Shown here: piece after piece, positions 35,009 through 55,655 of the stretch | How positions within the stretch are numbered: position 1 is the first letter of the stretch | How the letters are laid out: every line of letters begins with the position of its first letter | Assembly (NCBI RefSeq): GCF_000016125.1 | Contig: NC_009135.1 | Location: 1,178,001-1,242,000, forward strand | Direction: 5' to 3' | Source: Methanococcus maripaludis C5 | GTDB lineage: Archaea > AGJL01 > Methanococci > Methanococcales > Methanococcaceae | Length of the DNA: 64,000 nt | Program-made: the position numbers and the translations under genes | The notes under the pieces: model-generated | What the model was told of the DNA's origin: nothing | Seen by the model: only the letters and a program-made list of their open reading frames with translations | Database searches by the model: none

Positions 35009-35062
35009 TTAAAAACTCCAAAAAATAAAACTCCAAAACTCAAAGAGGTCATAAATATGTCA
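35009..35062 (+). repeat. Duplicated 54-bp leader, copy 1
   Basis: This segment, ending with the first two codons of the ArdC-like gene, is identical to 37053-37106. It contains ACTCCAAA repeats and the ribosome site AAAGAGGTCAT. Confidence 0.9.
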
Positions 35063-41969: not shown

Positions 41970-44200
41970 TATTTACCACCCTTTTTACCGTCTTTTTTTA
42001 CAATCGGCTTTTTAATGGTTTTTAAAGGTTTTTTACCTTTTTTTCTTCCAAAGACCACATACAAACCTAAACCTGAAATAATTAAAATTCCTGCGATTTT
42101 GTAGTTATCATAAACCAAAGTAATTACTGTATCAATTATTCCATCATCTAAATCAATGAAAGGAATAAATGAACCACTTGAACCGATATTCAATATTACA
42201 CTATCTGAATAGATTTCAGTTAAACCGGATTCTTCTACCAGATAAACCTTCAAAGGTAGTGAATAGCTGTCATAGTCTAAACTATCAAGCAAGGTAAATG
42301 ACAGTGATTGAACTTTAGAACTTCCTGGAGAAATTGAAAAATCTACTTTTGTAGAATTAACTAAAGGAGTTCCTTCAATCGTTAATCTGTAATATTGGGG
42401 TTCTGAAAATGGGTTTTCAATACTTACGGTTACAGTTCCAGTACTTCCTTCACTTGCAGTAATTGTTTTTGTTGTCAAAGAAACAGGATTAGCCACATTT
42501 ACATCAATGTAAGTGTTGATTAAATCCCCTGATTGAATGTAAAGTTTGTAATCTCCGGTTTCTTCAAAGTCGATATTGAATTTATGAGTTTCAAAACCTT
42601 CAAGCGTATATGAATCAGAATAGATTATATTTTCATCTGAATCTTCAACTTTTATAGTAACAGTTCTTGTTTCCCCTTCAGTTTCAATAACTGTTAAAGA
42701 ATTACTTCCAATACACCAGTTAGGAACTGTTAAAGAGAGTGGAAGTCTTACTATTTCGTAATCAATTGTAGTATCTGTTACAAACTCCGTACCAATTGAA
42801 TTATAACCTGTAACCCTTACAGCTAAACTATTTGTACCTAAAATAGTTCCAGAATTAATTTTTACATTTACTGTTTTTGCATTTGTAAGGTCATCAAGTA
42901 AATAATAACTATCCTGTTTTGAAATTTGAACATTTGAAGAATCCCTGACATCTAAAACTTCCTGACCTGTCAAGTATAACTTAACACCGTAAGCATTATC
43001 GTTTGGTTCAATGTTTAGTGCGATATTCACTTCAGAATTTGAATAAGTTGTAATTTCGACAGGAGTATTTGAAATTTTAAAAAATACTGATTCAGGGTAC
43101 ATTCTAACAGATATTTCTTCAGTAATGTTACTTACTGTAAAAGATTCTGTTTCATTCCAAAAACCCGATTTAACGAATGTAAATTCATACGTTCCATCAA
43201 GAACATCTAATAAATCCCCATCTGAATAATTATTAAAAAATGTTCCATTTTTATAAACGCTTACATCAGTCAATCCACCTTCTGAATATTCAATACTCAA
43301 AGGAATAGACCTAAAAGGTAATTGCATTGTATAATCTTCATCCATAACCACAGATTCAGTATATGTAAATCCATCTTTTTCAACTGTTATTTCATGTGTT
43401 CCAGTTGCAAATTGAATTATATCCCCATCATCAAACGTTCCTAATAAATTATCCCCATCATAAACATTAAAATCGTTTACAACAGATTCAAACGTTATAT
43501 AGTACAGTTCAGGCGGTGCAATCATTGTATAGATACTTGAATAACTTGAAGTTGAATCATAAACGAAATTTCCAAAGATAACCACAGTATAGGTCATTCG
43601 GGAAACATAACTCGAACCATCAAGAACTAAACGCAAATCGTTAGTTATTGCAGATGTGGGAGTTTTAAACACAGGAGTCGTACAGGCTACATCGTGGGAA
43701 GTATGAATCATATTTCCGTTTAGATAAATATCGTCCCCCGAAAATTGACCGTGATTAGGAAAGAGCATCATGTAAAACGTTTCAGGAACTGTTGTATTGA
43801 TGTAAATATGATCCTCGACATAATCCCCACCAAGGTCGTAACTCCAAACACCTTTTAACAGCCCATACGGTGAGTATTGACCATTTATATATGGCGAAAA
43901 CTCCCCATTGAACGGAATTTGTAGGTAATCTGCACTAATATAATTACAGAATCGACCTAAATCTTTTTCCGAAGCAAAATAAATTGTGTTTCCATCTACA
44001 CCAGTAACAACAGGCAGATAAGCAACAAAATCTATATTTTCAATAATTGTTATCGTTGCTTCCGTAGTCATGGCACTATCGTCCAGTACAACACAGTAAC
44101 TAGACGGAGTACAGGTTTCGGGAACCGTCAAATATTCCGCATTTACGGAACCCATTACACCCAGTAAGAATAGTAAAAAAAGAAGAAAGTGTTTTTTCAT
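41969..44200 (-). CDS. Large secreted PEGA-repeat protein with C-terminal anchor (element surface protein B)
   Basis: The 743-residue protein has a signal peptide (MKKHFLLFLLFLLGVMGSVNA), a beta-rich N-terminal domain with four Cys, two PEGA-like repeats (VYDGDNLLGTFDDGDIIQFA and VYKNGTFFNNYSDGDLLDV), Ig-like beta domains, and a C-terminal helix (IAGILIISGLGLYVVFG) followed by a lysine-rich tail. It is clearly a surface-exposed adhesin-like protein. GTGATT precedes the ATG. PEGA units also occur in the next upstream gene, so the two proteins are probably partners or share ancestry. Confidence 0.7.
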   Translation of the reverse strand: MKKHFLLFLLFLLGVMGSVNAEYLTVPETCTPSSYCVVLDDSAMTTEATITIIENIDFVAYLPVVTGVDGNTIYFASEKDLGRFCNYISADYLQIPFNGEFSPYINGQYSPYGLLKGVWSYDLGGDYVEDHIYINTTVPETFYMMLFPNHGQFSGDDIYLNGNMIHTSHDVACTTPVFKTPTSAITNDLRLVLDGSSYVSRMTYTVVIFGNFVYDSTSSYSSIYTMIAPPELYYITFESVVNDFNVYDGDNLLGTFDDGDIIQFATGTHEITVEKDGFTYTESVVMDEDYTMQLPFRSIPLSIEYSEGGLTDVSVYKNGTFFNNYSDGDLLDVLDGTYEFTFVKSGFWNETESFTVSNITEEISVRMYPESVFFKISNTPVEITTYSNSEVNIALNIEPNDNAYGVKLYLTGQEVLDVRDSSNVQISKQDSYYLLDDLTNAKTVNVKINSGTILGTNSLAVRVTGYNSIGTEFVTDTTIDYEIVRLPLSLTVPNWCIGSNSLTVIETEGETRTVTIKVEDSDENIIYSDSYTLEGFETHKFNIDFEETGDYKLYIQSGDLINTYIDVNVANPVSLTTKTITASEGSTGTVTVSIENPFSEPQYYRLTIEGTPLVNSTKVDFSISPGSSKVQSLSFTLLDSLDYDSYSLPLKVYLVEESGLTEIYSDSVILNIGSSGSFIPFIDLDDGIIDTVITLVYDNYKIAGILIISGLGLYVVFGRKKGKKPLKTIKKPIVKKDGKKGGK

Positions 44201-44215
44201 TTTTGAATCACTTCC

Positions 44216-44929
44216 TTATTTCCTGTTAAATCCTTTTCCTTTTGGCATATTGCCGATAAGTGCTACAATGAATACAACTGCAATTAAACCAAAGAATACT
44301 TTATTTTCAGTAAAAATATCTACAATATCATCGCCTTCAGCGTAAGCAATCAATATTGCAGTTTGAACATCTTCGGTTTCTTCAGTTGTTGTAGTTGTAG
44401 TATTTTCTTCTTCAGTTTCTTCTACAATTTCAGACATTGAAACGTTAATTTCAGTAACTCCTGGAACTGTGAGGTTCATTGAAACGTTTTCATATCCTGT
44501 TTTTGAGAAAGTTAAGTAGTACGTACCGTATGTAAGGCTTAATACTTGTGAAGTGTTATCGTAAGTACCTAAAAGTACGCCATCTTCGTAAACATCGCAT
44601 TCTTCAACGTTTGCGTTAATTTGTACTACGTATTCAGTTAATTCAAGTGTAACGTTACATTCAGTTGCTACAGTTGGGTCTACTTCAACAGTTTCGTTAT
44701 CATAGTATTCTTTAACGAGGGTAATGTTTTGAGCTTCATCTGTTATATTCAAAACACCTGAATCGTTAATTGTACCAAGTAAAGTATCATCTGAAGAATA
44801 AACTTCAATTTCGTTAATTCCATTCGTATTAAAAGTTACATCGGTAGCACAAGCTGGTAACACGCAAGAGAATAAAACCATTGTAACTACAAGAATTTTT
44901 TTCAAATTTTCTTTCATTTCTTTAAACAC
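44216..44929 (-). CDS. Secreted PEGA-domain protein with C-terminal anchor
   Basis: The 237-residue protein has a signal peptide (ILVVTMVLFSCVLPACA), two or three PEGA-like units (VYSSDDTLLGTINDSGVLNI, VYEDGVLLGTYDNTSQVLS), a Thr/Glu-rich stalk (EEENTTTTTTEETEDV) and a C-terminal transmembrane helix ending in basic residues. Start is a GTG at 44929, five bases after GAGGTGA; the ATG at 44917 is 17 bases from that site. The stalk and anchor suit a short surface fibre. Function beyond surface display is unknown. Confidence 0.65.
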   Translation of the reverse strand: MFKEMKENLKKILVVTMVLFSCVLPACATDVTFNTNGINEIEVYSSDDTLLGTINDSGVLNITDEAQNITLVKEYYDNETVEVDPTVATECNVTLELTEYVVQINANVEECDVYEDGVLLGTYDNTSQVLSLTYGTYYLTFSKTGYENVSMNLTVPGVTEINVSMSEIVEETEEENTTTTTTEETEDVQTAILIAYAEGDDIVDIFTENKVFFGLIAVVFIVALIGNMPKGKGFNRK

Positions 44930-44941
44930 AATTATCACCTC

Positions 44942-45322
44942 TTAATCTCTCATAGCAATTGCAAAGTATAGTACACCAGTAAACGCTAACGCAATCAACT
45001 GATATTCTGGAATCATTAAAGCTTCAACCTGAAGGTATCCAAAGACATACATTATTACTAATAAAAATGCAATTCCAAGACCTTCGACACCTGAAATATT
45101 TTTACTTTGTTTGAAGTTCCTTTTTCCTGAAATCAGGACAACAAACATACACCCGATTTCAACGAGTACAGCAGTCCAGAAATCAGCAATAAACGTATTC
45201 TGTAAGTAAATAATATCAACCATTACCGCAGTTCCGAGTAATGCAAAGAGAAACTCAAGCCAGGAAACTCTCCCATTTCCGGCAAATTTAATTTTTTGTT
45301 TTGAAAAATCCATTTTTTGCAA
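44942..45322 (-). CDS. Four-helix membrane protein
   Basis: The 126-residue protein has four hydrophobic helices after a basic start (FSKQKIKFAGNGRVSW). The start is taken as the TTG at 45322, four bases after AGGTGT; an ATG lies nine bases further in. It belongs to the operon run with gaps of about ten bases. Unrecognised family; a small integral component of a membrane assembly. Confidence 0.6.
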   Translation of the reverse strand: MQKMDFSKQKIKFAGNGRVSWLEFLFALLGTAVMVDIIYLQNTFIADFWTAVLVEIGCMFVVLISGKRNFKQSKNISGVEGLGIAFLLVIMYVFGYLQVEALMIPEYQLIALAFTGVLYFAIAMRD

Positions 45323-45331
45323 AATTACACC

Positions 45332-45739
45332 TCATTTTCCACCATAACATAATGACAGGGCAGTTATATCAATTAATAAATAAACAAATCCGGCAGGAAT
45401 ATTCGCAAACGCATCAATACCTGGTAACGTCATTGTTACAAAAGTTATTACTGGCTGACTTAAGGTCAAAGCTTCAAGAAGGATACCTAAAAATCCACCT
45501 GCACCTTTTCTGAATGATGTAAAAAACAAAATCATACAAGTTGCAAGAATCCCTAAAGTACCGCCCATTTGGAAAACAGCACCTATAAGATTACCAATTA
45601 TTGGAATTGCAGAAACGGCTACAAATCCACCATTTACTAAAGACATTCCAATCCCAACAAACAACAAAAGAACTCTAAAGTTTCCAAAACGAGACCTTCC
45701 ATAGTTCCGATATGTTGGATTTCCACCACCATAGCCCAA
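45332..45739 (-). CDS. Glycine-rich multi-helix membrane protein
   Basis: The 135-residue protein starts MGYGGGNPTYRNYGRSR, a positively charged Gly/Tyr-rich cytoplasmic segment, followed by four hydrophobic helices. The TTG start at 45739 has a full GGAGGTGA four bases before it. No family recognised. Small hydrophobic proteins with a basic N-terminus in such operons are candidates for a membrane-embedded coat or pore protein, but this is inference. Confidence 0.6.
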   Translation of the reverse strand: MGYGGGNPTYRNYGRSRFGNFRVLLLFVGIGMSLVNGGFVAVSAIPIIGNLIGAVFQMGGTLGILATCMILFFTSFRKGAGGFLGILLEALTLSQPVITFVTMTLPGIDAFANIPAGFVYLLIDITALSLCYGGK

Positions 45740-45743
45740 AATT

Positions 45744-46016
45744 TCACCTCCAACCTTTCTTTTTATAATTTGAATTGTAATTAGAATTATAATTGTTGTA
45801 TCCCCTTTGTCTTAATTTTATAGACCAGAGAATTCCTATAATTATTAAAGAAAAACCGAATACCGTTGTAATCTGTTCAGGAGTGCAGTATTCTGAAAGC
45901 GTTGGCAACAGGGAACAAGCCCATTCTATAAAATTATCCTGAAGGTACGTTGAATTGACATATACACCCCCAACAATAATTAACAAACTTGAAAAGAAAC
46001 CGAGTCTAATCCTCAA
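45744..46016 (-). CDS. Small two-helix membrane protein with Asn/Tyr-rich tail
   Basis: The 90-residue protein has two hydrophobic helices (about 4-21 and 50-68) around a short external loop with two Cys, and a tail of YNNYNSNYNSNY ending in basic residues. The size and two-helix plan resemble major coat proteins of spindle-shaped archaeal viruses, a comparison of shape only. The start is a TTG at 46016, nine bases after GGTGG. It is the first gene after the 165-base gap in the operon, so it may be expressed from its own promoter at a high level. Confidence 0.5.
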   Translation of the reverse strand: MRIRLGFFSSLLIIVGGVYVNSTYLQDNFIEWACSLLPTLSEYCTPEQITTVFGFSLIIIGILWSIKLRQRGYNNYNSNYNSNYKKKGWR

Positions 46017-46181
46017 ATATTACAACCACCTTTAATTTTAATCAAATATTTAACTACAATTAAAATAGAGCGTGGAATGTATAAAAACGCTATTAAAATA
46101 CGCCAATAAGTCGAATAAACCAATAAATGAATAAAACTAATAAATTAATACGTGAATAAATGAATAAATTTAAAAAAAGTA
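46017..46181 (-). promoter_or_regulatory. Intra-operon gap with candidate promoter
   Basis: The only sizeable gap in the surface operon is 165 bases long and very AT-rich, with AATAAATGAATAAA-type short repeats. On the minus strand TTTTTATAC near 46080 could serve as a TATA box for the genes from 46016 onward. Confidence 0.3.
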
Positions 46182-46817
46182 TTAAGATGAAAATATAACA
46201 TCTACAAGCTCATCAAATTCTTTAAACCTTGTATCGTGTTCATCATCCTTAAATTGGCTATAAAATTCAACACTTGGAGCTTCAACACCAATATTTATAC
46301 CCATTACAGAAATAGTTCCTTTTCTTAACACATAAGCTTCAATAAAGAAAGCTCTACCGTCTTTATCTAAAAGCGATAAATCAGGGGTAGTTGCAATAAT
46401 AAGAGGAACAACAGTTCTTACCATCTGCAAAATCTTCGCAAATGCTTTATTTATTTTAGTTGCTCCATCCCTTTTATAGAAGTATTTAGCGATATCATCA
46501 ATAAATACGATATCTAAATCCCTTCTACCTTTTAATTTTTCAAAGTCGGCTTTTGTTTTGATAAATACGGATTTTAAACCTAATTTTTTACATTCTTCAT
46601 GCATTGCAATTAAGTGAGTAGTCTTAAAAGAACCACGTTTTCCATCGATACAGATTGAAATATGTTCTTTTTCAGGTCTATACATATCTACAAGTTCAAG
46701 TATAGATATTTCCGAATCTGAAAAATCAATTTCTACATCAAAACCTAAACTTTTTGCAAGAGTATGCTCTTTCATCAAACTTAAATCGTATTCACCATAT
46801 AAAGCCGAATTAACCAT
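46182..46817 (-). CDS. P-loop ATPase of the element (packaging/assembly type)
   Basis: The 211-residue protein has a Walker A loop GKRGSFKTT (near residue 59) and a Walker B IVFIDDIAKYF (about 104-114), then VPLIIATTPDL, a sensor-like strand. It has no membrane segment. It sits among membrane proteins, as do the ATPases of archaeal viruses and of pT26-2-like plasmids, where they are thought to power DNA packaging or assembly. Its start overlaps the preceding stop (TAATG). It is the only enzyme recognisable in this operon. Confidence 0.65.
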   Translation of the reverse strand: MVNSALYGEYDLSLMKEHTLAKSLGFDVEIDFSDSEISILELVDMYRPEKEHISICIDGKRGSFKTTHLIAMHEECKKLGLKSVFIKTKADFEKLKGRRDLDIVFIDDIAKYFYKRDGATKINKAFAKILQMVRTVVPLIIATTPDLSLLDKDGRAFFIEAYVLRKGTISVMGINIGVEAPSVEFYSQFKDDEHDTRFKEFDELVDVIFSS

Positions 46818-47086
46818 TATTTCGTTTCCTCTTTCATTCTTTCATTTTCAAGTGCTGAAATAAAGCTCTTAAATGAGTTTTTATCCCCTGTTGCTTTTAT
46901 ATATATCGGGTAAAGTTCGGGTTTTAAAGAAACGAGTCTTCTAAGTCGGTTAGCCATCCATATTGTTCTAATTTTTTTACTCACTTTTGCCATCGCAGAC
47001 ATTAAAATATCGTTATCTCTTGAAACATATTCAAAGGACATAAAACTATTGACCAGTATTTTCAGTTCCATCTCCGTCAGGCTCAT
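46817..47086 (-). CDS. Small basic protein upstream of the ATPase
   Basis: The product of about 89 residues (MSLTEMELKILVNSFMSFEY ...) is basic and helical, with IRTIWMANRLRRLVSLKPE in the middle. I begin at the ATG at 47086, after AGGATGATATT; another start at 47104 is possible. Its first 41 bases overlap the end of the gene upstream and its stop overlaps the ATPase start, so it is translationally coupled on both sides. It may be a DNA-binding or adaptor partner of the ATPase. Confidence 0.55.
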   Translation of the reverse strand: MSLTEMELKILVNSFMSFEYVSRDNDILMSAMAKVSKKIRTIWMANRLRRLVSLKPELYPIYIKATGDKNSFKSFISALENERMKEETK

Positions 47087-48497
47087 TAATATCATCCTTT
47101 TCATCTTTTTTGAATATGTCTATTCCTTTATCAAAGAAATCTTCAATATCTCCGAGAATGTCTGTTGCATTTTCCATTGCGAGAGGGTTTAAATCTCTTG
47201 CAATTTTCTCAACTGCCACAGCCGTAAACTCCTGAGCTTTAATTGATTTTTGATATTTTTCATTATAGAACTTTTTAGCCCAGTTATTAACTTCTTCGGC
47301 AATTGTTTCAAGGTTATCGTGTAAAAATATTGATTCAGCAACCGTTTTATTCATTATTTTACTGAAATCTATTGTTACAACCCCGTGAATCCTTCCAAAA
47401 TAATCTTTTACCCAATCAACGAATTTTTCAAACCATGTTAAAATCCTGTTGATTGCAGTTGATTCATTGTAAACTTTTTCTTCAGTATCGTGAAGCTCAA
47501 ATGAAGTAACTTCATAAAGGTCTTCAAGGTTTCCAGTCATTGGATTTATATACTTAGTAGCGTTTACGTGTGGCATTCTCAAAACCCTAATTTTTCCATC
47601 ATCCCATCGAACACGAGCAATATCTCTTTCCCAAGATACAGGAAGGATTTTAATATCTCTCATGTTACTTTTAAAATTCATGTACCAAATGTTGATGTAT
47701 TCGGGCTTGGAAAGCTTAAAACCTAACGAATAACCGATTATTAAAGCTAATGGGTATATCCAGTTGAAATAAGATATTAAATAAAGCAAGTTCCAGTTTG
47801 AGAAATCAAAAAACGGCAATTTTAAAACAAATTTCCATTTTTCAATCGTTAATACTTCGTACATACTGAAAGGTAAGCCATATTTAATTGAAAGCATTGC
47901 AGCAATTAACCCTACAAAGCCCAAAATTAAAACATAACAGCCTTGTTTCCAGTAATCAATTAACATTCTTTTATAAAGCAGTTCTTTAATTGTTAATTGT
48001 CCAAATACTACCAAAAAGGCAAATAAAAAACCGGACTGAAGACTTAGAAACCCTAAAGCATTTGATGAAGCAATATAGAATTTCTGCTGCAAAGTTAAAG
48101 GAGTTGCAAACTCTTTTACAATTGCCATGTTTCCACCCTCTTTCCAAAACACAAAACAGAAACGACCCGATTTTAATTGAACTGAGTGAAATTCTTTATA
48201 GTTCCTTCCGGGGTCTAAAGTAATCTCGGTATTCCTTTTAGAATAAATATCATATGCGGTCATTGTAACAGAGTGAGAATTTGAGTTATAAATCTCAAAG
48301 TTAAGCTCTTTTGTAGTTGTATTATACTTAAAAGAAACTATATCACAGCCGTCTACCGTGTAAATATCACTTCCTGAAGAATCAGTAAAAGAATTTAAAG
48401 CTTCATAACTTGAAACATCTGAATAGTCTTCTCCTTCATCTGCTGTAACATTTGGGATAAAACAGAGTATTATTAAAAATAATAATTTAAGCTTCAT
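47046..48497 (-). CDS. Polytopic membrane protein with secreted N-terminal and large cytoplasmic C-terminal domains
   Basis: The 483-residue protein has a signal peptide (MKLKLLFLIILCFIPNVTA), an external domain to about 125, three or four transmembrane helices (about 140-265, including GFLFAFLVVFGQL and YVLILGFVGLIAAML) and a 200-residue cytoplasmic domain ending in an acidic tail. The start is the ATG at 48497 (TTGGAG upstream). It is a candidate platform or channel linking the ATPase to the surface proteins. No family recognised. Confidence 0.6.
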   Translation of the reverse strand: MKLKLLFLIILCFIPNVTADEGEDYSDVSSYEALNSFTDSSGSDIYTVDGCDIVSFKYNTTTKELNFEIYNSNSHSVTMTAYDIYSKRNTEITLDPGRNYKEFHSVQLKSGRFCFVFWKEGGNMAIVKEFATPLTLQQKFYIASSNALGFLSLQSGFLFAFLVVFGQLTIKELLYKRMLIDYWKQGCYVLILGFVGLIAAMLSIKYGLPFSMYEVLTIEKWKFVLKLPFFDFSNWNLLYLISYFNWIYPLALIIGYSLGFKLSKPEYINIWYMNFKSNMRDIKILPVSWERDIARVRWDDGKIRVLRMPHVNATKYINPMTGNLEDLYEVTSFELHDTEEKVYNESTAINRILTWFEKFVDWVKDYFGRIHGVVTIDFSKIMNKTVAESIFLHDNLETIAEEVNNWAKKFYNEKYQKSIKAQEFTAVAVEKIARDLNPLAMENATDILGDIEDFFDKGIDIFKKDEKDDINEPDGDGTENTGQ

Positions 48498-48828
48498 TTT
48501 CCCAATCTCCAAGAGGATTTAAATCATACTTTGAGGATTTTTGAGAAATCATTCTAAAAGTACACTCTCCTGCTTTTTTTATTAATCGAAATCCTAATAC
48601 GTATCTTTTTCTTGTTTCAATTCCAACTGAAACAGTTACATCGATATCGTCAGAATCGTAAGTAATTTTAGCTTGGTCTAAAATATCCTCAATCGAGTTC
48701 TCAATGTTGCAGGAATCCTTTAAATATCTTATTCTACTTTCAGCAAGTTCTTTTAGCTTATCATTTACATGGTAAACGCTCTTGTCTTCAAGGATTTCTT
48801 TATTTTGAACTTTAGGTACGAATATCAT
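48487..48828 (-). CDS. Unknown small protein of the surface operon
   Basis: The 113-residue protein starts MIFVPKVQNKEILEDK at the ATG at 48828, after GAGTGA. A longer frame to 48924 only overlaps the upstream gene. It is soluble, mixed alpha/beta, and has one Cys pair (NIENS preceded by Cys and ECTF). Stop overlaps the next gene's start region. Function unknown. Confidence 0.55.
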   Translation of the reverse strand: MIFVPKVQNKEILEDKSVYHVNDKLKELAESRIRYLKDSCNIENSIEDILDQAKITYDSDDIDVTVSVGIETRKRYVLGFRLIKKAGECTFRMISQKSSKYDLNPLGDWENEA

Positions 48829-48832
48829 GTTT

Positions 48833-49174
48833 TCACTCGATAACTTCGACATTCTCAACGGTAAGACCATTTCGGTATGCCAGAACAATTTTATCGACCA
48901 TAATAGAGTTATCATCTTCGTCAAACAAAGATAATTCTTCAGAAGTGCCGTCAGAATAAGTTACACGTACTTCAGAAAACACAAGGTCGTTATCTTTTCG
49001 GTACTTTCGGTATTCAAGCCACGAAAAAAAGCCAAGAAGACAGATACCGATAATAAAAAAACAAATGTATTCGATAACAGAGGTTTTAAGGAAAATGCCG
49101 CAAATATACCCCACTATAATGTAAACTAAAAAGAAAGGAATATTTTTTCTTTTGATTGAATTAATAGTTTCCAT
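48833..49174 (-). CDS. Two-helix membrane protein, first gene of the surface operon
   Basis: The 113-residue protein has two close hydrophobic helices (about 13-30 and 34-53) and a cytoplasmic beta-rich domain (VRVTYSDGTSEELSLFDEDD ... VLAYRNGLTVENVEV). Two ATGs are adjacent; the second (49174) is four bases from GGTGA and is preferred. A minus-strand promoter with TTTAAAA near 49227-49234 would give a leader of about 30 bases. Confidence 0.55.
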   Translation of the reverse strand: METINSIKRKNIPFFLVYIIVGYICGIFLKTSVIEYICFFIIGICLLGFFSWLEYRKYRKDNDLVFSEVRVTYSDGTSEELSLFDEDDNSIMVDKIVLAYRNGLTVENVEVIE

Positions 49175-49275
49175 CATTTCACCATTAAGTTTTTTTATAG
49201 CTTGAATTTACAAATCATTCGTTTTTTAAATCCGGTTGTGAATTTAAACTTAATTTTGTTCACATTTACAAAAAA

Positions 49276-49400
49276 TATAAATATTAATTTTACAAATGTT
49301 TAATTAGTCCTGTTTTAGCATTATTGGATTATTGTGGACCTCAAAGTTGAAAACGTTTAAAATCAATATTATACCCCAAACAGGACTCCTGTTTTCAGCT
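49276..49400 (+). ncRNA. RNA unit R1: TATA box and long stem
   Basis: TATAAATA at 49276-49283 is followed 26 bases from its centre by AGTCCTGTTT (49306-49315), which pairs perfectly with AAACAGGACT (49378-49387). The enclosed 62 bases are AT-rich. No open frame is supported. The TCCTG stem motif recurs in unit R5. Confidence 0.5.
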
Positions 49401-49476
49401 TTTAATAATTAATAACTTTTTTACCGGTTTTTAGTTTGAATTCAATTTTTTCGATTTTATCCCAAATGTGTATGGT

Positions 49477-49530
49477 ATTTATAACCCCAATTAAAGAATT
49501 ATGATGGCGAGAAATCGCTATCAAGTCCAC
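49477..49530 (+). ncRNA. RNA unit R2: TATA box and GAAA-loop hairpin
   Basis: ATTTATAA at 49477-49484 precedes an eight-pair hairpin with a GAAA tetraloop at 49503-49522 (GATGGCGA with TCGCTATC). The hairpin starts where transcription would be expected to begin. Confidence 0.5.
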
Positions 49531-49631
49531 AATAATTCGATAAATTCAGGAATTTGTCGTTATTTTTTATTTTTATTTCTTTTTTTTCGGTTTTATTGCA
49601 ATCACAAATGGCTAATACTCCAATTTTCAAA

Positions 49632-49740
49632 TTTATATTACTCTGAGTTTATTTCTCGGAGGTATTTGGGGGAAATAGTATAGGTGGTAGTGGTTTTATC
49701 TTTTTAGGCCATTTATTTCGAGGGGATTTAAATGGCCCCC
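49632..49740 (+). ncRNA. RNA unit R3: TATA box, small hairpin, T-tract and second stem
   Basis: TTTATATTA (49632-49640) is followed near the expected start by TATTT-GGGGG-AAATA (49663-49677) and a T-rich tract at 49694-49705. Just after this lies a separate nine-pair stem, GGCCATTTA (49707-49715) with TAAATGGCC (49729-49737), which has no TATA of its own. Confidence 0.4.
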
Positions 49741-49786
49741 AAATTACGATTTTTAACCCGATGTACTGGTTTTGATATATCTAAAC

Positions 49787-49936
49787 ATTTAAATACTACT
49801 ATTTTCAGAAATTATATTTGCCCGAAGTGGGAATTTTCGGGTTAGGGGAGTGTAGTAATTTTTAACGGTTCCATACGTCGTGGAACAGTTCAATTTCTGG
49901 GGATTTTTGAATTGTTCCAATCCTTAACTTTTTTTA
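49787..49936 (+). ncRNA. RNA unit R4: TATA box and alternative hairpins ending in a T-tract
   Basis: ATTTAAATACT (49787-49797) precedes CCCGAA (49821-49826) pairing with TTCGGG (49836-49841) at the expected start. Further on GTTCCA (49868-49873) can pair with TGGAAC (49881-49886), or GGAACAGTTCAA (49882-49893) can pair with TTGAATTGTTCC (49907-49918); the two share GGAAC and exclude each other. A run of seven or more T at about 49929-49935 ends the unit. Confidence 0.5.
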
Positions 49937-50017
49937 ATACGTTTTTCAAATTTTTTAAAATTTAAATCCAATCTAGTCGATATGCCCGATTAAAGGCATA
50001 AAAACCTACACAAATCA

Positions 50018-50105
50018 TTTATATAGTTCGAAAATTACTTTTTATTAGGTCCTGAAGTTCCAGATGAAGCAGAGATTATATATTCAATCTGGATTTCAGG
50101 ACTGT
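50018..50105 (+). ncRNA. RNA unit R5: TATA box and two-tier stem
   Basis: TTTATATA (50018-50025) is followed at the expected distance by GTCCTGAA (50051-50058) pairing with TTCAGGAC (50097-50104). Inside, CCAGAT (50062-50067) pairs with ATCTGG (50089-50094), separated from the outer stem by three bases or fewer on each side. It is the most regular stem of the five units. Confidence 0.55.
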
Positions 50106-50293
50106 ATGACCTCAATTTACATGCTCAAAGCCGATACACTAAATTTGTGCCATTTAATGTATCAAATAAACCGAAACAGACAGATTATTACCTCATATCA
50201 GATACCACCCTTTCAAATTACCGTGTCAATTCTGCCCTAATTTCGCAGATCGGGGCAGAACTCTGGAATTTTATAACTTTTTTTAAAATATTT

Positions 50294-50527
50294 TTAAACT
50301 TCAATTCTAAATCTATCGCTCATTATCATTGCATTGTGGTATATTACGGTCTTTTCTTCATCATTTGCATGAATACAAAGCCATTTACCGTCTCTATTCA
50401 CAACAGCCATTACATTTTGATTAATTTCTTTTCGATTTTTTAGTTGGTAGATAATTCTCTGAAGTTCCCTATCAGTTACAGGAAACTTTTTTCTGTCAAT
50501 TTTCCTTTTTCTGAAATTTTTAGCCAT
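50294..50527 (-). CDS. Small basic protein, last gene of the replication operon
   Basis: The 77-residue protein is strongly basic at its start (MAKNFRKRKIDRKKFPVTDR) and may bind nucleic acid; its second half (QNVMAVVNRDGKWLCIHAND) looks beta-rich. GGTGA lies three bases before the ATG, which overlaps the stop of the preceding 41-residue gene. Function unknown. Confidence 0.6.
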   Translation of the reverse strand: MAKNFRKRKIDRKKFPVTDRELQRIIYQLKNRKEINQNVMAVVNRDGKWLCIHANDEEKTVIYHNAMIMSDRFRIEV

Positions 50528-50645
50528 TTTTCACCGAATATTTTTTAATAATCTCGTTTAACTCATCACAAACTTTTTTTTCGTCTTTTCGCAAAACTAC
50601 AAAATTTCGAACATATGTTACGTGTATTTCTGTATTTTCAGTCAC
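50520..50645 (-). CDS. Tiny 41-residue protein between two operon genes
   Basis: A GTG at 50645 opens MTENTEIHVTYVRNFVVLRK and continues to a stop at 50520-50522 that overlaps the next start. GGTGT lies four bases before the GTG, inside the end of the upstream gene. The exact fit between its two neighbours and the good ribosome site are the reasons for calling it. Charged, soluble, unknown function. Confidence 0.55.
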   Translation of the reverse strand: MTENTEIHVTYVRNFVVLRKDEKKVCDELNEIIKKYSVKNG

Positions 50646-50647
50646 AT

Positions 50648-50842
50648 TTACACCAAATATTTTGAGATATAATCTTGTACGGCGTTATCAAGCAGAACAA
50701 AAGTACAGTTATCCGCAGATTTTCTATACCAATCATAAAACTGGATAATTCTTTGAGAAATTTCACAGCCTTCTCTTGCTCTCCTGCCAACTTCCTTTCC
50801 GTGTTCTTCACTCCATTTTATAATTTCTTGGATTGTATCCAT
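50648..50842 (-). CDS. Small helical protein downstream of the helicase
   Basis: The 64-residue protein (MDTIQEIIKWSEEHGKEVGR ...) is predicted helical with no membrane segment or metal site. GGTGGTGA precedes the ATG. It begins 12 bases after the helicase stop. Unknown function. Confidence 0.6.
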   Translation of the reverse strand: MDTIQEIIKWSEEHGKEVGRRAREGCEISQRIIQFYDWYRKSADNCTFVLLDNAVQDYISKYLV

Positions 50843-50854
50843 TTCACCACCATT

Positions 50855-52978
50855 TTACAAGATTAAAGTCTGTTGCCCTTTTTTCTGTTCAAAAACATTC
50901 ACATCGTAAGGAACTTTAAGAATTTTTAGTACCTTTGCAGCGGTTTTATTGCCCAGTTGAGCGGCTAATTGATAAGGATTCTTCTTTATGTCTTCCCTTG
51001 ATTTCAAACCAACATCATAGAGTTTTCTTGCTTTTACTCGACCAATTCCTTTTATTTTCAAAAGTTCAACAAGTTCTTCAGAAGCCCCATATTTAAGCCG
51101 GACATCGATATTTGAAAACTCATTCCAGTAATCTTTTAGGTTTCCCGAAATTCTAAGAAGCTCTTTAGCTGAATACATCATCCAGTTCATTTGCTCTAAT
51201 TTGTATCGTAAAATTCCCGGTTCTACTGCGTAATGTTCGTGGATTTCTTCGTCTGATTTTTCAGAAATCCAAGCTTTAAACAGTCTTGAATAGAAGAAAT
51301 CATCAATCAATTCATCATCTGACTCATAACCTAAAGATTCAAGCTCATTTCTAATATCTGAATCATTATCAGGCATTCTCAATTTTGGTTTCATTTCGTG
51401 AGTTCCTGAGAGAGTCAATAATATATGGTCTTCAAACGAATAGTCTTCAAGTCCTGCCAAACCGTTTAAAATGTGTATTGCGGAACTTGGCGAGATATAG
51501 AGTTCAGATACCCTACAACCTAAAGCCGTAACTTCAAGGATTTCATTTTCAGGTCTTAACAATTTAGCATTTTTAAAGTCAAACAGGATTTCTTCAACAG
51601 TTCTTTTAATTTTTTGAAAATCATCGTACTGGTACGCATAGAACGTATTTTTTAAGAATTTGAATAATTCTGTCTTGGTTCTTGTAATATCAGACGCAAT
51701 CAAACCTAAAACGTGCTTTTCTAAACTTTTATAGTTGGCAATTCCTGAATAGATGTGTTCAGGGTCTCCGTTTAAAAGATTCAAAGCTTCAGTAATATCG
51801 CCTTTTTTCTTCAGAACAATTATTCCCTCACCATAAGGGTCAAGCCCGGGTCTTCCTGCTCTACCAATGCACTGCTGAATTTCCATAACCGGAATAAATT
51901 TCATTCCTTTTTCAGAAAATCTCTTAACGTCTCGGATTATTGCCCTTCTACAAGGAAGGTTTAACCCTGCTGAGAGTGTTGGAGTACAGCAAATAACTTT
52001 TACAATTCGATTTTTGTATGCAGTTTCAACAATTTTTCTCTGTTTTGTCGTGAGTCCTGCATGGTGAAAGGCAATTCCTTTTCTAACGCAGTCGGAAAGA
52101 GTTTTAACAGTTTTTCCCTCTGAGTCTGATTCAAGAAGGTCTTCTGCAACTTCGTTTAGTTTTTCAATTTCTAAGGGGTGTAAATACTTCCTTACATCGT
52201 GCTTTTTAGCTTCCCCGACTGCGTTTCTTTTTGAAGAACAAAAGATTAAACAAGAGCCTTCTTCTTTTGCCGTATCGATAACTAAATTATTTAATGGGTT
52301 TTTATGTTCATTTTCAACCTTCTTTTCTTCTGAATTTGTGTATTCAATTACATTTTCAAAGAAAGTAGCTTTTCTAAGCTCAATAGGTCTCCAAGTGTCA
52401 ATAATTAATTTAGCATTTAACCAGTCTGCGAGTTCTCCGGGATTTCCAACAGTTGCCGAGAGTCCAATAATTTGTAAATTTAACGTCTTTAGAATTGTTA
52501 AAACCACTTCTAAAGTAGCCCCCCTTTCACCGTCTCCGATTAAATGAATTTCGTCTACTACCACACATGAAACGTCTTTTAGCCAGTCTATTTTATGCCT
52601 GATTAATGAGTCGAGTTTTTCTGAAGTTGTTATGATTAAATCGTACTTATTGAGGTCTTCTTTTGAATCAAAATCGCCAATTGAAATACCTATTTTAAGA
52701 CCATATTTCTCGTATTTTTCCTTGAATTCTTCGAACTTTTCAGTAGCTAAAGCTTTTAGTGGAACAATGAATATTGCCTTTTTTCCGGTTGGTTCTTTGT
52801 TTTCATTTAAAAGGTTATTTATGAAAGCCATTTCACCGATTAAGGTTTTTCCACTTGCTGTTGGAATACATACGAGGAAATTTTTAGTTTTGTCTAAAAG
52901 TCCGTTATCTAAAACTTTCTTTTGTGGCGGTCTTAATTCTGTAATTCCAAAATCTTTTAAAACTTCAAAGACACTCAT
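50855..52978 (-). CDS. Hel308-like superfamily 2 DNA helicase
   Basis: The 707-residue protein follows the Hel308/Ski2 plan: Walker A IPTASGKTLIGEM, DEIHLIGD box, IGLSATVGNP, helicase domain 2 with GIAFHHAGL and QCIGRAGRPGLDPYGEG, winged helix and ratchet helices, and a C-terminal helix-hairpin-helix (LKIKGIGRVKARKLYDVG). Hel308 unwinds stalled forks with 3'-5' polarity. Its location in the element operon suggests an element-borne replication helicase rather than the cellular copy. The start overlaps the previous gene by four bases (ATGA). Confidence 0.85.
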   Translation of the reverse strand: MSVFEVLKDFGITELRPPQKKVLDNGLLDKTKNFLVCIPTASGKTLIGEMAFINNLLNENKEPTGKKAIFIVPLKALATEKFEEFKEKYEKYGLKIGISIGDFDSKEDLNKYDLIITTSEKLDSLIRHKIDWLKDVSCVVVDEIHLIGDGERGATLEVVLTILKTLNLQIIGLSATVGNPGELADWLNAKLIIDTWRPIELRKATFFENVIEYTNSEEKKVENEHKNPLNNLVIDTAKEEGSCLIFCSSKRNAVGEAKKHDVRKYLHPLEIEKLNEVAEDLLESDSEGKTVKTLSDCVRKGIAFHHAGLTTKQRKIVETAYKNRIVKVICCTPTLSAGLNLPCRRAIIRDVKRFSEKGMKFIPVMEIQQCIGRAGRPGLDPYGEGIIVLKKKGDITEALNLLNGDPEHIYSGIANYKSLEKHVLGLIASDITRTKTELFKFLKNTFYAYQYDDFQKIKRTVEEILFDFKNAKLLRPENEILEVTALGCRVSELYISPSSAIHILNGLAGLEDYSFEDHILLTLSGTHEMKPKLRMPDNDSDIRNELESLGYESDDELIDDFFYSRLFKAWISEKSDEEIHEHYAVEPGILRYKLEQMNWMMYSAKELLRISGNLKDYWNEFSNIDVRLKYGASEELVELLKIKGIGRVKARKLYDVGLKSREDIKKNPYQLAAQLGNKTAAKVLKILKVPYDVNVFEQKKGQQTLIL

Positions 52979-54324
52979 TTTTTCACTTCTTCATCATCTT
53001 CAATCGGCTCGATAGTTTCAAACTTAACAAATTCGGTATCATGCGAACAGCGTTCAAATGAATAGCTTATACGGTGATTACAACGTTTACAGACGTGGGC
53101 AAATTCTTCATAATCATAATCCATTAAAGAATTACATTCAGGACATCGGTATATACCATTTAAAGCCTGTCTAATCCTTTCTACTGCATCACTAAAACGG
53201 TAAATTCCCCTTTTTTGACCGAAATCAGACTCCAATTTAACAATCAAATTATTTCTTTGAAGCTTTTCTCTAAGGTTTTTAGTAGTTCTATCAAATTTTA
53301 CGACAGTAGCACCGCCATAAATAATAGTTTTAGTGATATCAAGAGACAATTTCCACCATTCAGCGAACTCTTGAAGCAAACTCTCCCCATCAAGTTTTAT
53401 AGGTCTAATACCTTCAAACTGGAACCCATATTTTAAATAAGACTCAGAAATCCCAAGCAAAATGCTTTCATAAAGAAGTTCCGGGTCTTCAAATTTCAAC
53501 CAGTTTCTTGAAGCATCTTTCGACCAAGTAAACTCGTGTCTGTTAATCCCTGCACCCTTTTGATAACGTTTAAATTGAATCGGAATCGATTTTAAGTTTT
53601 TACTGTAATATTCTGTCTGAGTCCAGTCTCCACACCTCAACATATAGTTTGATTTTCTTGTTTCAGCAATATATTCAAATTGAACCTGGTCGCAGCCTAA
53701 AAATTCGACATCGACCTCAGCCTGTTTTACTGAAACTTCAACCAGTGAAGTGTAATCGGTCTCCTGTAACTCTAAATCCCTTGCAAGTTCTTCAATATCC
53801 AAATCAAAAATTTTCTTCAGATATTCTGAATAAATAAACTTAAGCTCTTGCACGTGGTCTGAGAAAGTAACACACATTTCGTTTAAAAGCTCTTTTTCAT
53901 CGTTTAGATAAATCGGAAGAACGTTTGTAAACTTGTATGTGTCTTCATAGGGGTTTATTCCCTTCTGTTTCATGTAGAGCCTGTTAAAATTACAGTAAGC
54001 ATAACCCACGTATGGTGCAGTAAAAGAAAGTGTTAAATCTGAAATCACTTCCCCCTCTTGCGACTCTATCGGGTCAGAACTCCACCGTTCAGTTGGAAAT
54101 TTTATTCCCATCGAGTTCTTGTTACTGTAATCAAAGACCCTTACAATATTTTTTGGAAATTTCTCTTTCCATTCGTGAAATGCCTGTTTATTGTGGGATT
54201 TACCGATATATTTAAAGAGAAACGGGCAATATACAGTAAATACAACCCTATCGAGTACAATTCGTCTTGAAACATCCTCATCATATTGAACAGTTGCAGG
54301 AGGAATATTTTCAAGAGTTATCAT
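52975..54324 (-). CDS. Large zinc-ribbon protein, candidate replication protein
   Basis: The 449-residue protein has a long N-terminal region of unknown fold, a winged-helix-like segment (VVKFDRTTKNLREKLQRNNL ... KRGIYRFSDAVERIR) and a C-terminal zinc ribbon (YRCPECNSLMDYDYEEFAHV followed by CKRC). Its coupling by four-base overlap to the helicase suggests a role in element replication, possibly as initiator or loader; no catalytic motif of known Rep families is visible. AGTGATTA precedes the ATG, directly after the previous stop. Confidence 0.55.
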   Translation of the reverse strand: MITLENIPPATVQYDEDVSRRIVLDRVVFTVYCPFLFKYIGKSHNKQAFHEWKEKFPKNIVRVFDYSNKNSMGIKFPTERWSSDPIESQEGEVISDLTLSFTAPYVGYAYCNFNRLYMKQKGINPYEDTYKFTNVLPIYLNDEKELLNEMCVTFSDHVQELKFIYSEYLKKIFDLDIEELARDLELQETDYTSLVEVSVKQAEVDVEFLGCDQVQFEYIAETRKSNYMLRCGDWTQTEYYSKNLKSIPIQFKRYQKGAGINRHEFTWSKDASRNWLKFEDPELLYESILLGISESYLKYGFQFEGIRPIKLDGESLLQEFAEWWKLSLDITKTIIYGGATVVKFDRTTKNLREKLQRNNLIVKLESDFGQKRGIYRFSDAVERIRQALNGIYRCPECNSLMDYDYEEFAHVCKRCNHRISYSFERCSHDTEFVKFETIEPIEDDEEVKK

Positions 54325-54741
54325 TTAATCACTCTTGATGATTAACAAAACATCTTCTTCAGTAAGTCCCAAGTCTTTTCCTGCACTAAGCATTGTAGCT
54401 TTAGAATGGTTCATAGCGTTCATTCGTTCAATCTCTAAAACTGCTTCGTTTTCAGCTCGTTTCAAAATCTTGTTTTTCAAGTCTTCACTTTTCGTAACAG
54501 TTGCAAGAAGTCTCGCAAAATCCCTGTAAGTCATTTTAATTGACTTAGCCTGTTCTTTTGAAGTACAATCTGCATGACTTGAAAGTACAACGTAACCACA
54601 GTTTTCAGGGTCAGTAACACAAGACGTTACAACTCCATCTTTACCTTTTGTTACAGCTTTTGCAGGGTAAAAAACGACTCTTGACTGTCCGAAATTAAGC
54701 CTATCGGGAAGGTCAAATTTATCAAGGTTCATTACTTGCAC
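54325..54741 (-). CDS. Small protein related to the next upstream gene (paralogue 2)
   Basis: The product of about 138 residues starts at a GTG at 54741 placed five bases after GGTGG; the ATG at 54732 is further away. The first half is beta-rich (FGQSRVVFYPAKAVTKGKDG). The C-terminus, KATMLSAGKDLGLTEEDVLL, resembles a UBA-like three-helix end and aligns with NTILAAARDYGIAKEVAEKI in the gene at 54743-55180. The pair may be single-stranded DNA-binding subunits; this is inference. Confidence 0.55.
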   Translation of the reverse strand: MQVMNLDKFDLPDRLNFGQSRVVFYPAKAVTKGKDGVVTSCVTDPENCGYVVLSSHADCTSKEQAKSIKMTYRDFARLLATVTKSEDLKNKILKRAENEAVLEIERMNAMNHSKATMLSAGKDLGLTEEDVLLIIKSD

Positions 54742-54742
54742 A

Positions 54743-55180
54743 TTAACCACCGATAATTTTTTCAGCTACTTCTTTCGCAATTCCGTAATCCCTTGCTGCT
54801 GCTAAAATAGTATTTGGAGACAGCCCATTGTTTTTCATTGAATAAAGTTCTGAAATCTTATCTTTTGCGTACAAATCGTCAAGCATTTCTTTAAATCCGT
54901 TACCTTCATTGTAAGCTTTTACAATATCCATAACCACTGAAACAGACAATTGAACGTTAAACTGTTTGTTTTTGTCCTGTTTAACTCCGTTGTTTACATT
55001 TTGTGTAAAAAGCCTTACTGTACCTTTTTTATCAAAATCCGTTTCGTAAATGGGCTGTCCAGTTTTTTCGTCTACTTTATCAGTTTTTACCTGACCTCTT
55101 GAAACGTGGATTTTTCCAGTTTGAAAACCTGTATCGTAGTTAAACCATCTTTCAGTTACTGTTTCATGTTTTTCAGACAT
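54743..55180 (-). CDS. Small protein of the replication operon (paralogue 1)
   Basis: The 145-residue protein starts at the ATG at 55180, six bases after AAAGGTGA; an ATG two codons earlier abuts the site. It has a beta-rich N-terminal half (GKIHVSRGQVKTDKVDEKTG, TVRLFTQNVNNGVKQDK), then FNVQLSVSVVMDIVKAY and a C-terminal helical end shared with the next gene. The pattern of short strands with basic loops would suit an OB-fold, but I cannot confirm it. Confidence 0.55.
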   Translation of the reverse strand: MSEKHETVTERWFNYDTGFQTGKIHVSRGQVKTDKVDEKTGQPIYETDFDKKGTVRLFTQNVNNGVKQDKNKQFNVQLSVSVVMDIVKAYNEGNGFKEMLDDLYAKDKISELYSMKNNGLSPNTILAAARDYGIAKEVAEKIIGG

Positions 55181-55445
55181 TGCCATTCACCTTTTTTATA
55201 TGGTAGTCTCCATTTTCGAAGTAGACCTGTATTCTATCTCCTTCTTTGAGACCGTTTGATTTTGTTTTTAGTTCGTATATTTTCTTTGAATCATCTTTTA
55301 CGAGAAATTGATTTTTTAAAATGTAATTATTCGATAATTTGTTAAATTTGGAATCATAAACCGCTATTTTGCAGTTTTTAGTCTGCTGTCTCATGACGAC
55401 AGTGTATTCCTTTATTTTTGAGGTCTTTGGAAGTTCGGGATACAT
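55173..55445 (-). CDS. Small beta-rich protein of the replication operon
   Basis: The 90-residue protein (MYPELPKTSKIKEYTVVMRQ ...) is basic and strand-rich, ending KEGDRIQVYFENGDYHIKKV. The start directly follows the AbrB-like stop with ribosome site GGATGATTA, and the stop overlaps the next gene. No known family. Confidence 0.6.
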   Translation of the reverse strand: MYPELPKTSKIKEYTVVMRQQTKNCKIAVYDSKFNKLSNNYILKNQFLVKDDSKKIYELKTKSNGLKEGDRIQVYFENGDYHIKKVNGNV

Positions 55446-55574: not shown

Positions 55575-55655
55575 TATCGCCTCTTTTGATATGGATTTTA
55601 AATGAGGGGTGGGGGGCATGTTTTGTGAATACAGACGTATATTTTTTATTAGTAG

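Follow-up and report, generated by a model that had tools for sequence, protein, structure and literature searches.

To our knowledge, few archaeal small RNAs (sRNAs) have a known function. Sponge RNAs of the CsrB/RsmZ type carry many binding sites on one RNA, and their GGA or GGGG hairpin loops titrate a translational regulator. The plasmid and phage antisense RNAs CopA, RNAI, and P4 CI RNA are fully complementary to a target from the same locus. In Methanosarcina mazei, single-stranded segments of sRNA162, which has the homologue sRNA171, mask the ribosome binding sites of mRNAs (PMC3510493). The cuckoo/alpha-r14 sRNAs of Alphaproteobacteria, such as NfeR1, consist of hairpins with variable stems in which a conserved anti-Shine-Dalgarno (anti-SD) motif, CCUCCUCCC, is left unpaired (PMC10746234). 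Integrated elements of the pT26-2 family in M. maripaludis carry helicase and membrane-protein modules; for strain C5, a remnant with two core genes is all that is listed, and the text of that paper mentions no small or noncoding RNA (PMC6972569). Literature searches returned no sRNA family described as travelling on archaeal mobile elements.

This study analyzed a 64,000-nucleotide stretch of Methanococcus maripaludis C5 (the window; C1 1178001-1242000 of the 1,780,761-base chromosome), which carries an element that can be likened to the pT26-2 family, by gene content alone, in its helicase and membrane-protein modules. Between two operons of this element we identified what we consider, with a probability of roughly 0.6, to be a cassette of regulatory sRNA genes, five in number, each transcribed separately into a structured RNA that acts in trans, and all belonging to a multi-class family, both element-borne and present as solo copies. 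As in sRNA162 and other archaeal trans-acting sRNAs, the predicted RNAs are structured and have single-stranded segments; the likeness is one of design, and sRNA162 is not described as a multi-class mobile cassette (PMC3510493). The cassette and its surroundings are as follows.

39939-49177, minus strand: surface/membrane-protein operon, context only, back to back with the start of unit 1
46182-46817, minus strand: NTPase of the surface operon
49200-50300, plus strand: five-unit RNA cassette, a 1.1-kb block between two minus-strand operons
49200-49420, plus strand: unit 1 gene, aligned in six copies
49440-49587, plus strand: unit 2 (type 2A) gene, fold z -3.4, eight-copy family alignment of types 2A and 2B
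49590-49758, plus strand: unit 3 gene, three-array alignment, fold z -3.0
49750-49935, plus strand: unit 4 gene, 15 copies in three genomes
49960-50288, plus strand: unit 5 gene, six copies aligned, with a conserved upstream region
50294-55445, minus strand: replication operon (Hel308-like helicase, 449-aa protein, small genes), context only, outside the cassette
50855-52978, minus strand: Hel308-like helicase of the replication operon
52975-54324, minus strand: 449-aa protein of the replication operon

The five plus-strand TATA-like boxes listed in the preliminary description are present (49275-49285, 49476-49484, 49632-49639, 49788-49795, and 50018-50025), and its promoter-hairpin units are real in that a structured segment and then a T-tract lie downstream of every box. 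U-tracts are functional terminators in M. maripaludis (PMC8716108), and every unit would be equipped with a promoter and a U-tract terminator of its own. Counted strictly, as a TATA box with a hairpin of at least 7 bp and a T-tract, the region contains three units. None of the remaining 1-kb tiles of the window, on the plus or the minus strand, reached this number; dinucleotide shuffles had a mean of 0.43, and 2 of 500 reached three. Fold z-scores against shuffles were -2.0 for unit 4 and -4.5 for the 5' hairpin of unit 5, in addition to those listed for units 2 and 3, whereas unit 1 was not significant when evaluated as a nested fold (-0.3). The sequences of the five units differ from one another, and so do their predicted folds. 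The genome is AT-rich and holds many TATA-like words, which would be the ground for regarding the hairpins as products of chance; however, the shuffle test, the cross-genome conservation, and the covariation presented below leave this reading next to no probability, and the conserved copies refute it. The claim that a stem-loop begins near each start held insofar as all five units contain a predicted structured RNA, but unit 1 is predicted to form a pseudoknot of the H type and the start of unit 3 had been misplaced.

With its own promoter, a structured RNA, a terminator, and no conserved coding sequence, each unit is, as judged from the DNA, an independent sRNA gene. We infer transcription from this layout, and it is in the same conditional sense that targets, a protein partner, and a direction of effect are considered below. 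Rfam 15 has no family for the region (best match, 23.3 bits against a gathering cut-off of 78), and its search across the whole window yielded two tRNAs and nothing else. Literature searches returned no account of a matching RNA family either; the gene family is apparently undescribed, in line with the earlier statement that no such system was known.

The 1.1-kb block has two further copies in the genome of the window (G000), with 73-81% identity and unchanged unit order; one of these sister arrays belongs to a second related element at 910 kb (L025), and the other lies at 1726 kb (L027). Unit 1 is doubled in L027, and both variants of unit 2 are present there; element proteins are absent from the surroundings of L027, so that this array stands as an orphan among host genes. 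A third related element (L039), in genome G002, carries units 2B and 4. Homology among the copies runs from a long conserved promoter through to the T-tract. Units 2B and 5 likewise recur, and solo copies are intergenic, beside unrelated host genes, several of them near integrases. Within the Methanococcus maripaludis group, the family would have spread as solo copies as well as on integrated elements. The genome contigs collection, IMG/VR, PLSDB plasmids, and phages were scanned with exact patterns or proteins; no relatives were found, and these sets apparently contain no close relatives. Two further RNA classes were found, unit 6, which adjoins a gene for a WYL-type protein, and U7, located at G000 C1:570904(-) with a copy at G002 C2:1751(-) (L029 3780-4010 and L036 1600-1860, both minus strand). 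U7 has a proximal promoter resembling that of unit 4, a hairpin resembling P1, and, ahead of T-tracts, a terminal hairpin with the loop CGGGGGG.

The cluster lies on the strand opposite both flanking operons, as noted earlier, and this position and orientation are kept in the window, L025, and L039 elements, which would suit cis-antisense or read-through control of those operons. The preliminary description had proposed that antisense action or protein binding could control the switch between replication and surface genes. The units, however, lie between the operons, a T-tract ends every unit, and unit 5 ends before 50294; unit 1 and the surface operon start next to each other and diverge, and unit 5 and the replication operon converge with their 3' ends facing, so neither operon would be overlapped unless transcription read through. 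The array L027 and most single copies, moreover, lie outside such elements, beside unrelated genes. We consider cis-acting control very improbable; the RNAs could regulate the element in trans, and most likely act in this manner rather than as antisense to the flanking operons. CopA, RNAI, and P4 CI RNA are comparable as mobile-element RNAs beside replication genes with possible loop-loop pairing, but the cassette has no overlapping target.

Unit 4 is the most widely distributed unit and has the following parts, all on the plus strand.

49755-49776, plus strand: distal promoter element AACCCGAYATATTGGTTTTGAT
49788-49795, plus strand: TATA box
49802-49820, plus strand: proximal promoter element, with the RNA starting from about 49818
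49820-49842, plus strand: hairpin P1 with a G-rich loop
49844-49850, plus strand: GGGG linker
49882-49918, plus strand: hairpin P3 with loop UUUCUGGGGAUU
49928-49935, plus strand: T-tract

The covariance search that had been recommended for finding relatives was productive: among 36 Methanococcales species, each searched in one genome, the unit 4 model retrieved 15 copies in three genomes (five in G000, eight in G002, and two in G001). In these 15 strong copies, with weak doubtful matches left out and the alignment fitted to the model, 96% of pair cells were standard and four pairs carried both-sided changes; a single shuffle in 500 did as well. The copies have a promoter of approximately 70 bp in common, in which AACCCGAYATATTGGTTTTGATTACCCTAAA is followed by TTTAAATA and then by TTTTCAAAAATTATATTG, the last of which reaches up to the predicted start. 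The genes for unit 4, unit 6, and the WYL-type protein were the only places where a model built from the promoter sequence gave E values below 1e-12. In many copies, one reading frame stays open ahead of unit 4, and a peptide was considered; third codon positions there vary least, indicating that the region is not coding.

Unit 5 was longer than first delimited, as its features show.

50018-50025, plus strand: TATA box, with the RNA starting from about 50047
50048-50103, plus strand: first hairpin
50133-50163, plus strand: second hairpin
50230-50260, plus strand: third hairpin
50277-50284, plus strand: T-tract

The predicted RNA of approximately 240 nt with three hairpins ends near 50285, beyond the interval 49276-50105 assigned to the array earlier. 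In its 5' stem, the arms of which were cut by hand, five of seven pairs have changed on both sides, and both the paired percentage and the covariation score exceeded those of all 500 shuffles. Compensatory changes in related elements, to which the preliminary description had tied its proposal, were thus found in helices of units 4 and 5, in alignments that were model-fitted or hand-cut and are in this respect biased toward the structures counted. The TCCTG/CAGGA core seen in the stems of units 1 and 5 turned out to be coincidental, since relatives of unit 5 have CCCGAA/TTCGGG, CTCCAAA/TTTGGAG, and others at this place.

These changes also bear on the reading of the region as a DNA element, a replication origin or recombination site whose stem-loops act in the DNA. 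The region is gene-free and adjoins a replication operon, and the origins of pT26-2 plasmids are predicted in such regions (PMC6972569). Nevertheless, G-U pairs and compensatory changes preserve the helices as RNA, the organization from promoter to T-tract is strand-specific, solo copies lie away from any replicon, and the unit 4 promoter serves a protein gene as well, all of which make a DNA element highly unlikely.

Unit 3 required a new start, and its parts are accordingly placed as follows.

About 49610-49619, plus strand: TATA box, degenerate in the window copy
49624-49639, plus strand: proximal promoter element
49641-49661, plus strand: 5' hairpin
49663-49672, plus strand: G-rich stretch
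49707-49737, plus strand: 3' hairpin with loop UUUCGAGGGGAUU
About 49748-49754, plus strand: T-tract

The box at 49632, previously taken as the TATA box, corresponds to a conserved element proximal to the transcription start, and the predicted TATA box and start lie approximately 20 nt upstream. The TATA box was placed at approximately 49610 from the sister arrays, in which it reads CTTTATATC and GCTTATATG; the start is thereby predicted at approximately 49640, which puts the conserved 5' hairpin inside the RNA. In the array alignment, both hairpins have changed letters and kept pairing, the 3' hairpin being GGCCATTTA/TAAATGGCC in the window and GGACTGTTTA/TAAATGGTCC in L027. The unit 4 model matches unit 3 weakly (E 3e-4 for the L025 copy and about 0.05 for the window copy). 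Close to where the 48.5-kb gene begins, the unit 3 loop has a 14-bp complement. This site was rejected as a target, since it falls within the last part of the coding sequence of the gene before, and chance sites of similar strength occur elsewhere.

Units 1 and 2 are considered together.

49200-49270, plus strand: conserved upstream region of unit 1
49275-49285, plus strand: TATA box of unit 1, with the start predicted at approximately 49303
49307-49315 and 49378-49386, plus strand: stem A of unit 1, interlaced with stem B
49346-49354 and 49391-49399, plus strand: stem B of unit 1
49373-49377, plus strand: C-run ACCCC of unit 1
About 49416-49422, plus strand: T-tract of unit 1
49476-49484, plus strand: TATA box of unit 2
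49503-49522, plus strand: hairpin P1 of unit 2 with a GAAA loop
49525-49543, plus strand: antisense segment of unit 2
49538-49559, plus strand: hairpin P2 of unit 2
49561-49587, plus strand: T-tracts of unit 2

In unit 1, the helix GTCCTGTT/AACAGGAC interlaces with GTTGAAAAC/GTTTTCAGC, and it is probably for this reason that the nested fold is not significant. The two helices are 96% paired, compared with 37-48% when slid; a single both-sided change was found and shuffles do not separate the pairing, so that the pseudoknot rests mainly on retained complementarity. Unit 1 is accordingly a predicted H-type pseudoknot RNA with weak covariation. Its unpaired C-run is kept in six of six copies. Across the Methanococcales, unit 1 was found in G000 and G002 only; G000 C1:524544-524639 (minus strand) gave a weak extra match to the model (E 2e-4) and is possibly a degenerate copy. 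Type III toxin-antitoxin systems have tandem copies of one pseudoknot RNA adjoining a gene for an endoRNase toxin; the five units are not such copies, and a Pfam search of the adjacent ORFs 48833-49177 and 50294-50527 returned no toxin family.

In unit 2, a GAAA-type loop closes the first hairpin in all eight copies. The segment 49525-49543 of unit 2A is a 19-nt uninterrupted complement of the unit 1 loop 49321-49339, a length reached by none of 1000 shuffles (maximum, 17). An 18-bp complement is retained in L027; the L025 array has no unit 2A, and the pairing is therefore not universal. These findings suggest that units 1 and 2A encode an sRNA and its anti-sRNA, with unit 2A pairing with unit 1 and thereby possibly acting as its sponge. 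Several copies of unit 2B have a C-rich hairpin loop, which is lacking in the window, where unit 2 is of type 2A. The C-runs of units 1 and 2B range from CCCC to CCCCCCC or read CCCUC.

The terminal hairpins of units 3, 4, and U7 have G-rich loops resembling UUUCGRGGGGAUU. These loops match GAGGGGATTTAAATG, the ordinary context of SD and start codon in the genes of these genomes; GAGGGGATTTAAATG was for this reason discarded as the leader of a specific regulon. Together with the unit 1/2A complement, the C-runs, and a C-box in the leader of the early operon, the SD-like loops favor trans-acting RNAs that would work most commonly by loop pairing and titration. Units 3, 4, and U7 would mimic mRNA leaders, and the partners of their loops may be C-rich RNAs (unit 1, unit 2B, and the C-box of the early mRNA) or an RNA-binding protein. 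The cuckoo/alpha-r14 sRNAs are similar in having several hairpins with differing stems and an SD-related motif conserved in unpaired regions. They belong to another domain of life and show no sequence relation, however, and the widespread units of the cassette carry SD-like G-loops, with C-runs in units 1 and 2B only; the anti-SD motif CCUCCUCC that marks the hairpin loops of that family is not what the G-rich loops of units 3 and 4 contain.

55606-55615, minus strand: C-box CCCCCACCCC of the early (replication) operon, within the leader and close to where the mRNA is predicted to start

The C-box raises the question of whether units 3 and 4 act as trans-antisense RNAs on the early operon of their own element, controlling replication and copy number, with chromosomal solo copies conferring immunity to incoming elements. 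The C-box is kept in three of three elements, whereas the sequence upstream of it diverges, and in the own genome the 10-mer occurs in the leaders of the window and L025 elements only. The unit 4 loop of each element is complementary to its own C-box; in L039, where the C-box differs, GUGGGGG faces CCCCCAC. For some loops, the C-box ranks first among the element leaders. On the other hand, C-run/G-run complementarity is cheap, and the duplex energy of the C-box is not exceptional within the window, where other sites score equally well or better. Moreover, G001 has solo unit 4 genes and no C-box, and full arrays occupy element-free loci. The C-box is thus a hypothetical target of the G-rich loops, and we regard antisense control of the early operon as unlikely. 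In the sister elements, the C-box lies at L025 18486-18497 and L039 5755-5764, upstream of a gene for a 42-43-aa AbrB-like protein, and a conserved TGGATATCCA palindrome lies further upstream in all three elements.

A partner protein was also considered. The gene with a unit 4 promoter encodes a 96-aa protein that matches the PADLOC WYL model (E 6e-6) and no Pfam family; its structure model is of low confidence (pLDDT 45). High-identity WYL-type proteins were found only in the three genomes with unit 4. Its mRNA leader has a potential hairpin with an SD-like G-rich sequence as in units 3 and 4, with no variation in the hairpin. Another WYL-domain protein, WYL1, is known to bind ssRNA (PMC6547453). 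The WYL-type protein is a candidate protein partner of the cassette RNAs, proposed by shared promoter and co-occurrence only, and as a stand-alone WYL protein a candidate for an Hfq-like role.

The same features form the case for titration as the sole principle, in which one protein, WYL-type or other, binds the hairpins with G-loops and its mRNA targets are in competition with the sRNAs. The promoter common to the WYL-type gene and units 4 and 6, the corresponding hairpin with a G-loop in the leader of the WYL mRNA, the restricted co-occurrence, and the ssRNA binding of WYL1 agree with it; units 1, 2, and 5, however, have no G-loop, and the WYL-type gene is located outside the element. This explanation is possible, although we would not expect it to hold. 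CsrB/RsmZ-type sponges likewise have repeated GGA/GGGG hairpin loops, and those of the cassette could titrate a translational regulator, but the cassette comprises five distinct RNAs.

The reading that we prefer, of independent trans-acting sRNA genes, may be extended into a mobile RNA circuit, in which a pseudoknot sRNA, its anti-sRNA, SD-mimic sponges, C-loop RNAs, and the co-regulated WYL-type protein, as the likely RNA-binding partner, would control translation of element and host and give carriers control over related incoming elements. This extension is speculative, and as a whole rather unlikely. A conserved multi-RNA cassette with an sRNA/anti-sRNA pair in the tractable M. maripaludis makes RNA control of mobile elements directly testable.

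Further observations concern the neighboring genes. The WYL-type gene loci (L026 3353-3747, L030 13379-13775, and L037 6974-7367) have unit 6 upstream and a small conserved ORF of 97-101 aa downstream, the L026 copy of which has no Pfam family. In G001, the WYL-type leader is apparently damaged (L040 8190-8200), the part with the Shine-Dalgarno sequence and ATG having seemingly been lost. The portion of the surface operon at 39939-46817 encodes, besides the NTPase, small proteins of hydrophobic character and large ones with signal peptides, with almost no PHROGs matches, and is possibly a membrane-containing virus or transfer module. At 35057-37039, the window encodes a 660-aa protein in which an ArdC-like antirestriction N-terminus is fused to metallopeptidase and methyltransferase domains.
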